Assembly: GCA_030651035.1 (NCBI GenBank)
Contig: JAUSCK010000206.1
Location: forward strand, 1-45,128
Reading direction: 5' to 3'
From: Elusimicrobiota bacterium
GTDB taxonomy: Bacteria; Elusimicrobiota; Elusimicrobia; Elusimicrobiales; UBA9959
Length of the DNA: 45,128 bases
Made by a program: the position numbers and the translations under genes. Below are positions 5,427-44,566 of this stretch, piece after piece. The notes beneath the pieces are model-generated. The model saw nothing but the letters and a program-made list of their open reading frames with translations, was not told the origin of the DNA and did not search any database. The stretch's first letter is position 1; each line of letters opens with the position of its first letter.

Positions 5427-5840
5427 CCGCGAGATGCGAAGTCGGGGCTTGCCCCGAACTTTGACCGCTTCGGGAAAAGTGCGGGGGCCTACCGCAGGGG
5501 GTCGGGGTCCTGACGAGGGGTTGCCCATTCCGCCGCGCAGGAACCGTTGCGCGGTTCCCCCCAGCCGAGATAATTAGGCTGGGGCCCCCCTCCCCAAAGC
5601 GGCTCCAGGGCAACCCCTCGCCACCCCTCCCGGTTTGGCTTATTTAAAAAAAAAGACTGCGCTGGCCGCGTCGTGCAACTGACGGAGACCGTGTGTTCGG
5701 GCTAGAGAAACCGGTAGGGGTGGCGAGGGTATGGGTTCGGCGGGCCTTCCCGCAGGCCGGAGCTTACGTAAGAGCGGAGGCCGAGGGGTGAGCGCGGCCA
5801 CGGTGTGGCCGATAGCGCGCCCGCCGGGCCCATACCCTCG
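5427..5840. repeat. non-coding structured repeat, copy A
   Basis: About 450 bp without a credible gene are packed with inverted repeats. 5515-5526 pairs with 5608-5619 (12/12). 5540-5558 and 5559-5584 are local hairpins. 5617-5636 pairs with 5708-5727 (19/20). 5724-5735 pairs with 5829-5840 (12/12). The 22 bases at 5427-5448 are identical to the reverse complement of 36157-36178. Shared words such as ACCGCAGGGG, CGGAGACCGTG, a ...CCGAGG... block and CGGTGTG occur in the same order at 35769-36095. I read the two as members of one element family; function is unknown. Confidence 0.75.
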
Positions 5841-5875
5841 ACACCCCTCGCGACGCGCATATTGCGTTCCGGCCC

Positions 5876-17956: not shown

Positions 17957-18025
17957 ACATGGATAAACAGGATGGACAGGATTTGTATTTCCCTCTCTTA
18001 TCCTGTTTATCCTGTTCATCGATGT
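17957..18025. repeat. ACATGGAT/ACAGGAT palindromic repeat, copy 1
   Basis: The left arm (17957-17982) starts ACATGGATAAACAGGATGG; the right arm (18000-18025) is its imperfect inverted copy. The AT-rich loop is 17 nt. It lies between lptE and holA. Four related copies occur in this window. Confidence 0.9.
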
Positions 18026-22301: not shown

Positions 22302-22367
22302 ACATGGATAGACAGGATGTACAGGATTTTTTTCCTCTTATATCCTGTTTATCCTGTTCATCCATGT
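22302..22367. repeat. ACATGGAT/ACAGGAT palindromic repeat, copy 2
   Basis: The left arm starts ACATGGATAGACAGGATGT and the right arm ends CATCCATGT at 22367. It lies between uvrC and the alkyltransferase gene. Confidence 0.9.
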
Positions 22368-22697: not shown

Positions 22698-22770
22698 ACA
22701 TGGATAGACAGGATATACAGGATTTTTTATTTTTCCCTTTACATATCCTGTTTATCCTGCTCATCCATGT
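22698..22770. repeat. ACATGGAT/ACAGGAT palindromic repeat, copy 3
   Basis: It starts one base after the alkyltransferase stop and fills most of the gap to the convergent pilC gene. The arms are ACATGGATAGACAGGATAT and its inverted counterpart ending CATCCATGT. As a hairpin between convergent genes it could also end transcription. Confidence 0.9.
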
Positions 22771-23982: not shown

Positions 23983-24057
23983 TGGTAAGCGGTAAGGATT
24001 AAGTGGTAAGGATTAAGCAGCAAGCAGCAGGTTTTAATCCTTAATCCTTAATCCTTT
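23983..24057. repeat. GGTAAGGATTAAG / TTAATCC inverted repeat
   Basis: Two direct copies of GGTAAGGATTAAG (23991-24003, 24005-24017) face TTAATCCTTAATCCTTAATCC (24034 onward), which can fold into a stem with an 16-nt loop. It fills the pilT-pilC gap and resembles 17289-17320. Confidence 0.7.
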
Positions 24058-27091: not shown

Positions 27092-27161
27092 ACATGGATG
27101 AGCAGGATGGACAGGATGAAACAAGGCAAACACAAATCCTGTCTATCCTGTCTATCCATGT
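27092..27161. repeat. ACATGGAT/ACAGGAT palindromic repeat, copy 4
   Basis: The arms are ACATGGATGAGCAGGATGG and the inverted counterpart ending TATCCATGT at 27161. It lies between the GYF-like gene and pilB on the minus strand. Confidence 0.9.
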
Positions 27162-29729: not shown

Positions 29730-29880
29730 AAGGTTACAAGGAAAGTTTACTATTTACCTATTTAAGATTTAATACAGGAATGTGGCAATTTTGTTACAAG
29801 GGGGCTCGGGGCGAATTCCCCCCGCTCGGGAGCTTTGGGGAATGGACCGCGAGAGGCCTAGCCGGGGTGGCCGCCCCTCG
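29730..29880 (-). promoter_or_regulatory. upstream region of the GYF-like gene
   Basis: This 151-bp gap holds an AT-rich half next to the GYF-like start. On the minus strand TTGCCA, 17 nt and TTAAAT form a moderate promoter about 40 bp before the ATG. The GC-rich half near gltX has short palindromes (GCTCGGGG, CCGCTCGGGAGC) and an ACCGCGAG word shared with the long structured repeats. No gene is seen. Confidence 0.4.
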
Positions 29881-33033: not shown

Positions 33034-33132
33034 TTCACCGCAGAGGCGCAGAGAGCGCAGAGTGGAGTCAAAGCGACACGTTTTCCTGCCTCGGGAATTC
33101 CCCCTCTGCGTCCTCCGCGTCTCTGCGGTGAA
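33034..33132. repeat. TTCACCGCAGAG inverted repeat, copy 1
   Basis: The left arm (33034-33062) begins TTCACCGCAGAGGCGCAGAG. The right arm (33104-33132) is its imperfect inverted copy ending CTGCGGTGAA. It lies between nadK and recN. A second copy is at 44436-44566. Confidence 0.88.
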
Positions 33133-35739: not shown

Positions 35740-36178
35740 TTCGGGCGGCATACCGAAGGGATCGGGGACCGCGAGATGCCAAGTCGGGGGCTTACCGCAG
35801 GGGCCAGAACGCAAAACCGGCGTCGCGTACACCGTACGCGCGCCTGCCTGCCTCAGGCTCGGCGCTTACGCAAGCCTCGCCTTCCGGCGGCTTTTGCTAA
35901 CCTGGCCCCTGCGGTCTCCCCCTCCGCTCACTTTATCAGTTAGCACATTTTTTATTAAAACGGGTAACCTGGGCGGAGACCGTGGGGATCGGGTCAGCAA
36001 AAGCCGCCGGGATGGAGCGAAGCGACAGTTCCCCGCCCCGAGCTTGCGTAGCGCGAGGGCCGAGGCAGGCAGGCGCGCGCACGGTGTGCGCGACGCCGGT
36101 TTTGATGACCCGGTCCCCACGGTATGCCGCCCGAATCCATGCTAATCCCGCAGTAGGCCCCGACTTCGCATCTCGCGG
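35740..36178. repeat. non-coding structured repeat, copy B
   Basis: About 440 bp without a gene form a nested palindrome. 35813-35854 pairs with 36062-36103 (40/42 complementary). 35884-35898 pairs with 35996-36010 (15/15). CGGTCTCC at 35912-35919 pairs with 35975-35982. 35740-35755 pairs with 36120-36135 (15/16 or better). 35769-35790 pairs with 36157-36178 (20/22). Several words match copy A at 5427-5840 in the same order. It separates the glnS set from purH. Confidence 0.8.
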
Positions 36179-36187
36179 TTGAAATAT

Positions 36188-37701: not shown

Positions 37702-37770
37702 ACATCGATAAACAGGATGGACAGGATAAGAGGAAAAAATAAAAATCCTGTATATCCTGTCTATCCATGT
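37702..37770. repeat. ACATGGAT/ACAGGAT palindromic repeat, copy 5
   Basis: The left arm starts ACATCGATAAACAGGATGG and the right arm ends TATCCATGT at 37770. It lies just upstream of purH, in the gap after ligA. Confidence 0.9.
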
Positions 37771-42353: not shown

Positions 42354-42452
42354 GTGAACCTGCGAAAATTCTGGATGCGCATGCGAGCGGCAGCGAGCTT
42401 CCCCATAAGGAAGTACTGTTCCCTGTCCTTGCGTATAAGGAAAATCAAGTGA
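42354..42452 (+). pseudogene. duplicated start of the next small gene
   Basis: A GTG-started frame of 32 codons begins MNLRKFWMR, nearly the same as MNIRKFWMR of the next gene, then diverges and stops at TGA 42450-42452. That stop overlaps the next GTG start. 25 of 30 bases match between 42352-42381 and 42447-42476. Codons after the match read through an inverted copy of the next gene (see 42408-42498). It is best seen as a remnant of local duplication, not a working gene. Confidence 0.6.
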
Positions 42453-42498
42453 ATATCAGGAAATTCTGGATGCGCAAGGACAGGGAACAGTACTTCCT
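42408..42498. repeat. perfect 26-bp inverted repeat at gene start
   Basis: 42408-42433 is the exact reverse complement (26/26) of 42473-42498, which encodes residues 9-17 of the small membrane protein. The GTG start (42449) lies in the loop, so the mRNA could form a long hairpin around its own start codon. Confidence 0.9.
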
Positions 42499-42739
42499 GA
42501 CCGGGATAATATTTGCCAGCTGCATAGGGGCCTTCATATCGTCCTACTGGCATTTCACGGACCGCACAACTGTCCGCCAGAATATAAAGATCAGGGCGAA
42601 AGAAACCACTAAAACGCAGCAGTTCAAACTCAGGGATGTGCAGTACACCCCCGTGAAGCTGCGCGCGGGAGCCACGCGGTATTACCGCCTGGACGATGAC
42701 TCAAAGCCGTCGGTGCCGAAGATGGGTGAAGATGAATAA
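42449..42739 (+). CDS. small single-pass membrane protein
   Basis: This 96-residue protein begins with GTG and reads NIRKFWMRKDREQYFLTG, a membrane helix (IIFASCIGAFISSYWHF) and a basic then mixed tail ending PKMGEDE. No family is recognised. It overlaps the next gene by 8 nt, so the pair is probably co-translated. An inverted repeat around its start codon may affect translation. Confidence 0.7.
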   Translation: MNIRKFWMRKDREQYFLTGIIFASCIGAFISSYWHFTDRTTVRQNIKIRAKETTKTQQFKLRDVQYTPVKLRAGATRYYRLDDDSKPSVPKMGEDE

Positions 42740-43361: not shown

Positions 43362-43376
43362 CGAATAGCGAACAAA

Positions 43377-43415
43377 ACGGATGGCGCGAATAATTACATA
43401 TTCGCGCCATCCGTT
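43377..43415. terminator. bidirectional terminator between convergent genes
   Basis: A 16-bp stem (ACGGATGGCGCGAATA and TATTCGCGCCATCCGT) with a 6-nt loop lies between the plus-strand membrane gene and the minus-strand PorV-like gene. Outer GCGAATA/TATTCGC words can extend it. Confidence 0.85.
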
Positions 43416-44435: not shown

Positions 44436-44566
44436 TTCACCGCTGAGGCGCAGAGGTCGCAGAGCACAGAGTGAGCAGAACGGCAAAATACGAATTAATA
44501 TTTATTCCTCCGAATACTGCGGTGTCGCTTCGCTCCACTCTGCGACCTCTGCGCCTCTGCGGTGAA
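44436..44566. repeat. TTCACCGCAGAG inverted repeat, copy 2
   Basis: The left arm begins TTCACCGCTGAGGCGCAGAG and the right arm ends CTCTGCGGTGAA at 44566. It lies between the sorting-domain gene and the PorV-like gene, in the same family as 33034-33132. Confidence 0.88.

Follow-up and report, generated by a model that had tools for sequence, protein, structure and literature searches.

Two intergenic stretches of the window, by which we mean the whole 45,128 nucleotides of DNA analysed here (contig C145 of a 4.47-Mb, 320-contig genome), are made up of nested inverted repeats. The original prediction took them for two copies of one element, which might be a new structured RNA, a MITE-like element or a nucleoid or termination site, and the question raised by this locus is which of these they are. 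Copy A (5427-5850) is flanked by a YtxH-like gene (+) and a sodium:solute symporter gene (-). The neighbours of copy B (35740-36179), a glutamyl/glutaminyl-tRNA synthetase gene and a purH-like gene, are both encoded on the minus strand. The nested self-complementarity of both copies was confirmed far beyond chance, as folding with RNA parameters gave z = -6.5 for the 441-nt copy A and z = -14.2 for the 451-nt copy B. The inner arms differ in sequence between A and B, and each copy has retained its own self-complementarity. The shared inverted end was also borne out: CCGCGAGATGCSAAGTCGGGG occurs exactly at 5427-5447 (+), 35769-35789 (+) and 36158-36178 (-), with a chance expectation of 0.01, and its single extra match, at 29847, has 3 mismatches. 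For copy A, the predicted start at 5427 held and the predicted end at 5840 did not, since the element ends nearer 5850. The parts of the two copies are as follows.

5427..5447 (+): terminal motif CCGCGAGATGCGAAGTCGGGG of copy A, with an inverted match in copy B.
5452..5486 (no strand): small hairpin module H4 (CCCCGAACTTT...AAAGTGCGGGG), a dispersed repeat, from the sequence and from BLAST matches of query positions 20-81 in the same genome.
5490..5500 (+): outer stem of the H1 type (TACCGCAGGGG), of which only the left half is present, from sequence comparison.
5511..5623 (no strand): hairpin module H3, with arms at 5511-5526 and 5608-5623, from the inverted-repeat search.
5615..5729 (no strand): inverted repeat around the AT-rich spacer that separates module H3 from module H2, from the inverted-repeat scan.
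5715..5850 (-): the H1-type unit of copy A, a three-way junction of variant H2 (75.2 bits, E 1.3e-13).
35740..36135 (no strand): outermost inverted repeat of copy B, with arms at 35740-35766 and 36109-36135, from the inverted-repeat scan.
35769..35789 (+): terminal motif on the left of copy B's inner composite, an exact motif match.
35786..35922 (+): H1 unit of copy B (153.1 bits, as a training sequence; z = -6.6 for the single-stranded DNA fold).
35972..36131 (-): the other H1 unit of copy B, which is inverted and forms an inverted doublet (67.9 bits, E 4.2e-12).
36158..36178 (-): terminal motif on the right of copy B, an exact motif match.

Copy A is composed of the terminal motif, H4, a partial H1 stem, H3 and H2, and copy B of an outer inverted repeat that encloses a composite of the terminal motif and two inverted H1 units. 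The relatedness of A and B stands in that they share modules, but they are different composites of common hairpin modules and not two copies of a simple 400-nt element. A hairpin model trained on H1 units from the same genome recognised the one H1-type unit in copy A and the second unit of copy B, both absent from the training set, whereas the 153-bit score of the unit at 35786-35922 comes from a sequence used for training. The H2 unit of copy A gave z = -5.8 for the single-stranded DNA fold, and near-identical modules are present elsewhere in the genome. Judging from the sequence, the half-stem at 5490..5500 was apparently interrupted by the next module. The other parts are dispersed as well: when up to 3 mismatches were allowed, the terminal motif was found in the same genome at 34 places and the reversed pattern at 11; a pattern related to H4 gave 16 exact matches, and its control none; an H3-type hairpin, alike by eye, lies at the orthologous C279 site of genome G142. 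From the evidence set out below, A and B are probably composites in which non-autonomous mobile DNA hairpins, long resident in one Elusimicrobiota lineage, are nested, and H1 itself most likely represents old hairpins of this kind at gene 3' ends.

H1 is a quasi-palindromic DNA of about 137 nt that forms a three-way-junction hairpin. Its parts are a variable outer stem, the conserved internal loop AAC/TAAC, a short stem rich in A/T and, at the sides, two hairpins whose loops are conserved. Most copies keep the AAC/TAAC loop as well as the loops ACACCGT and TTACGCAA. Further copies were readily collected: BLAST searches of the same genome gave 92 matches with copy A as the query and 124 with copy B, and there were many more in relatives. 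At least 27 H1 copies are present in this genome. Since numerous matches fall at contig ends, the repeats probably broke the assembly, and because many H1 and H2 copies are among them (e.g., C36:1, C154:8, C193:1, C255:1 and C262:1), the true copy number is probably higher. The 19 internal regions that we read are mosaics of the terminal motif CCGCGAGATGCNNAGTCGGGG, H1, its variant H2 and the hairpins H3 and H4, and isolated H1 units without the terminal motif were seen by eye. Model R1 was built from an alignment of 24 H1 units of this genome, out of 28 sequences. In genome_contigs, the core pattern was found in at least 113 stretches, with titles of Elusimicrobia/Elusimicrobiales or of 'bacterium' bins, and R1 identified 124 H1 units on 100 of these 113 loci. 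Inverted H1 doublets are present at such loci as in copy B. In a sample of 119 genomes from the phylum, H1 was detected in 10, all of them among the 12 genomes of the family to which the window belongs (a count of 27 per genome in this sample means at least 27). Thus, H1 in this sample is confined to one family-level Elusimicrobiota lineage. The core pattern had 0 matches in viral_contigs, which rules against a viral origin.

An unbiased inverted-repeat scan returned other hairpin families instead of H1. The hairpin repeat ACATGGATNNACAGGATNNACAGGAT and its complement occur at window positions 17957-18025, 22302-22367, 22698-22770, 27092-27161 and 37745-37770; with at most 1 mismatch allowed, they gave 105 and 102 matches in the same genome, and the control gave 0. 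A third inverted-repeat family, of the TTCACCGC(A/T)GAGGCGCAGAG type, lies at 33034-33132 and 44436-44566; similar repeats are presumably present in other phyla. Palindromes of AAGGATTAAG-type units are common to two contigs (window 23994-24056 and C52 18546-18635, L097), and two strong isolated inverted repeats at 42400-42506 (107 nt) and 43376-43415 (40 nt) are by eye unrelated to H1.

The position of H1 relative to genes was analysed with a home-made codon-usage gene caller on 109 of the 124 units, excluding those near locus ends or without two gene calls, and 108 of these 109 were intergenic. H1 lay between convergent genes 23 times and between divergent genes 6 times, as compared with 48 and 45 gene pairs at the same loci (Fisher p 0.0096), and the median distance was 43 to gene 3' ends versus 91 to gene starts. 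With respect to co-directional neighbour genes, 41 units were in sense and 38 in antisense orientation. These results indicate that H1 prefers positions after gene 3' ends, in either orientation. No T-run was seen by eye after H1 at the sites read, and a plain terminator is unlikely.

The flanks of the H1 units had matches in all 32 genomes of the genus, so that orthologous sites could be compared. On the 3' side of rnpB, H1 was present in 19 of 29 genomes, 18 in sense and 1 in antisense; in 14 of these genomes the unit starts 4-14 nt behind rnpB, and in the other five, where it is nested or composite, 43-133 nt behind it. The C252 site, after a stop codon, carried H1 in 22 of 27 genomes by the model (one partial), with 14 sense and 9 antisense among 23 units, and the C266 site, also after a stop codon, in 18 of 29 genomes, with 4 sense and 14 antisense; at each of these two sites one genome has a run of N. 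The skew at rnpB and C266 could hint at a strand-specific role. By contrast with these widely filled sites, C279, read in 23 of the 32 matched genomes, is by eye filled with H1 in the genome of the window and with a hairpin of the H3 type, similar in its outer ends, in G142; the other 21 have neither. At the copy B site, reading the first 480 bases by eye in 12 genomes revealed elements in G110, G142 and G129, perhaps a remnant in G124, and no element in the other eight. Some H1 sites are therefore conserved across the genus and others are occupied in few species only. At C266, G142 has another hairpin type in place of H1 (GGTATAGGCAAAGGTGCAGGTA ... TACCTGCGCCTTCACCTTTACC, L323). Within rnpB itself, the RNase P RNA gene of the window's genome carries an H4 hairpin in an apical loop (G000:C198:3881-3909, L376), at a place that reads CCC-GCAA-GGG in other genomes, and G144 (L398) has a similar insert in a different rnpB loop.

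A structured RNA is usually proved by covariation, and the covarying structure that had been suspected in the arms turned out to be very strong. Both-sided changes were found in 26 of the 40 pairs among the 24 units of the same genome, and in 32 of 40 among the 124 units. In the latter set, which was fitted to model R1 with a fit that leans towards pairing, 93.6% of the cells were paired, 843 changes were both-sided against 38 one-sided, and all five measures were above all 500 shuffles and all slid controls. A covariation pipeline would label H1 an RNA.

A selected RNA fold should tolerate G·U far more than A·C. Among 4878 cells of the 124 units, G·T occurred 48 times and A·C 62 times. Because H1 units occur in both orientations, the count was redone with 41 units from two gene junctions oriented by transcription, and it gave 18 G·U versus 25 A·C of 1592. 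On the other hand, the RNase P RNA from the same genus (28 sequences, from 28 of 29 rnpB matches) showed 380 G·U versus 3 A·C of 3128, with a structure from RNAalifold that accepts G·U and may inflate this number somewhat, not hundredfold; its one-sided and both-sided changes were 99 each. RNase P RNA was used as the control because the 13 tRNA acceptor stems, with 3 versus 2, were too small a set. Directly 3' of rnpB, the outer stems of 14 H1 units (of 19, as the five nested or composite ones were excluded) had 33 both-sided changes versus 1 one-sided, with 1 G·T and 9 A·C. The H1 arms change jointly without passing through G·U, and hence their complementarity is kept as DNA. These results clearly indicate that the pairing of H1 is maintained at the DNA level and not by RNA selection. 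A function of the folded DNA under selection is expected to lack G·U in the same way as template switching, and the two are not separable here.

The proposal of a new structured RNA was not supported by this comparison. On that view, H1 would be a hairpin in 3'-UTRs or between cistrons with a role in protecting or processing transcripts, for example at the 3' end of RNase P RNA, and its covariation would come from selection on the fold. The strength of the covariation, the location (close behind rnpB in 14 of the 19 genomes that have H1 there, and behind stop codons at C252 and C266) and the orientation bias at rnpB and C266 all agree with it. Nevertheless, wobble pairs are not in excess while the adjoining RNase P RNA is full of them, the overall orientation is random, several orthologous sites are without H1, and the whole window gave 0 Rfam matches at the gathering threshold, and we regard this explanation as improbable. 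H1 is a large family that passes the covariation test and yet is maintained as DNA, with the adjoining RNase P RNA as a built-in control. The transcription-oriented count of G·U versus A·C provides a simple general check that distinguishes RNA structure from mobile or self-correcting DNA palindromes.

Signs of mobility came from the orthologous sites. C279 is occupied in 2 of 23 genomes, and at rnpB clean empty sites and H1 nested in H1 were both observed by eye. Of the ten genomes without H1 at rnpB, seven have short junctions with no long hairpin and three (G134, G131 and G121) have other sequence. G142, G110 and G106 have a new H1 behind a piece of an old one; G126 and G128 carry an H2-type composite instead, in G126 after part of an old H1 (all by eye). 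No target-site duplication was recognised at rnpB and C279, where filled and empty sites are too different for the junctions to be read. Insertion into pre-existing palindromes was rejected as a rule, since the empty C279 and rnpB sites are by eye mostly hairpin-free; some empty C266 sites do carry short hairpins.

As the driving enzyme, Y1 (RAYT-type) transposases come to mind, and H1 would then be an oversized REP/REPIN-like element moved by them. Genes of Y1_Tnp, the only transposase family searched, were found in each of the 14 genomes examined within the bacterial family, and the genome of the window has 9; the inverted H1 doublets resemble REPINs; and RAYT enzymes read folded single-stranded DNA hairpins with bulges (PMC8266576). 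However, no H1 was found within about 1.5 kb of any of the 36 Y1-transposase loci searched, and the Y1 counts do not track H1, as G108 has 9 Y1 genes and no H1 match, and G110 has 1 Y1 gene and at least 27 H1. G082 is similar to G108, these two having 8-9 Y1_Tnp genes and few or no H1 matches. Furthermore, there is no conserved base or foot tetranucleotide outside the stem in 123 H1 units, and the unit is more than 3 times the size of a REP; by eye, many outer stems contain a (C/T)GTC step. Y1/RAYT was consequently dropped as the driver of H1, and we judge a REP/REPIN origin of this kind distinctly unlikely.

The cores and the arms of H1 behave differently. Several identical cores recur inside different stems, and in genome STB_10 a 90-nt core is identical to the letter in five copies, whose left arms agree at only 12-16 of 20-21 positions in 9 of 10 pairs and are each complementary to their own right arm at 16-19 of 20-21. 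Over 186 distinct H1 units, own arms match at 83.5% and swapped arms at 61.5%. The left arms were less than 60% identical in 10 of 103 pairs of near-identical cores, so the same core in different stems is a minority. At C252 and C266, compared with one match per genome and site (39 of 41 primary matches, the partial G137 match excluded), core similarity was 0.645 within the same site versus 0.639 between sites, and stems were nominally somewhat more alike at the same site (0.642 versus 0.584). Cores were 0.656 similar within a genome versus 0.637 between genomes (3231 of 20000 permutations, not significant); genome-wide homogenisation of cores is thus not a general rule, and their concerted evolution within genomes found no support at these two sites.

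Template switching between inverted repeats is described in PMC8604942 as homogenising the arms and inverting the spacers. PMC8794818 proposes it as the origin of compensatory changes in RNA stems and as able to create and maintain hairpins. By this process alone, old palindromes could grow and stay perfect at fixed places, and many H1 sites are indeed old and shared. We consider such an immobile H1 very improbable, because one conserved core, including the identical 90-nt cores, stands at many unrelated sites, copies are nested, and occupied sites face clean empty ones.

The reading that we prefer, old mobile DNA hairpins, would work as follows. Non-autonomous mobility would account for the dispersal, the nesting and the present/absent sites; the units are seen between genes alone, as inverted doublets or inserted in one another. 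During replication the polymerase may switch templates between the arms, and this would produce their complementarity and probably the inversion of cores too. The loops AAC/TAAC, ACACCGT and TTACGCAA persist in most copies, which suggests that something also selects these unpaired bases; by analogy with REP transposases, this could be a presumed enzyme that recognises the folded single strand during movement of the element. It is also conceivable, although rather unlikely, that the inner core travels from hairpin to hairpin as a structure-targeted cassette and lands in, replaces or flips inside stems fixed at genes, being guided by the folded single strand and the conserved loops through the presumed enzyme. 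If so, the genomes of this lineage would carry a population of hairpins living inside hairpins. In any case, the H1 set provides natural data for the evolution and spread of DNA hairpins in bacteria.

No earlier description of such elements was found in the literature searched, a coverage that most subscription journals lie outside. A likeness to integron attC sites was set aside because the AAC/TAAC bases are not complementary. The mitochondrial repetitive and double-hairpin elements (PMC2800124) are in form likewise small repeated intergenic DNA hairpins with multi-hairpin forms and no known mobilising gene. They also enter variable parts of RNA genes, where the insert found here is H4 and not H1; they are organellar, and in the sponge cases the loops carry substitutions and the stems are conserved, which is the reverse of H1. 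REP/REPIN elements (PMC3733652, PMC8266576) share with H1 the intergenic location mostly downstream of genes, the inverted doublets, and the variable stems with conserved unpaired bases. They differ in being 20-40 bp with a GTAG or CGTC tag and in having RAYT transposases, whereas H1 is a three-way junction of about 137 nt with no tag outside the stem and no linked transposase (0 of 36 Y1 loci). Template-switch inverted repeats (PMC8604942, PMC8794818) resemble H1 in the joint change of the arms and the inversion of the spacer; the process is known from scattered inverted repeats and RNA genes, whereas here it would work on a dispersed family with a core of about 90 nt. Like bacterial MITEs, H1 is short, non-coding, repeated, intergenic and nested, with inverted ends, and terminal inverted repeats of the MITE type are present in copy B (35769-35789 and 36158-36178). 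Of the predicted identities the MITE-like one came nearest, and it held for the repetition, the nesting and the presence or absence at orthologous sites, but no parent transposon was found, with Y1_Tnp as the family searched, and no target-site duplication was recognised, and the terminal motif belongs to the composites and is absent by eye from isolated H1 units. We file H1 under the mobile DNA hairpins as a new variant, and not with the REPs, the MITEs or the RNA families.
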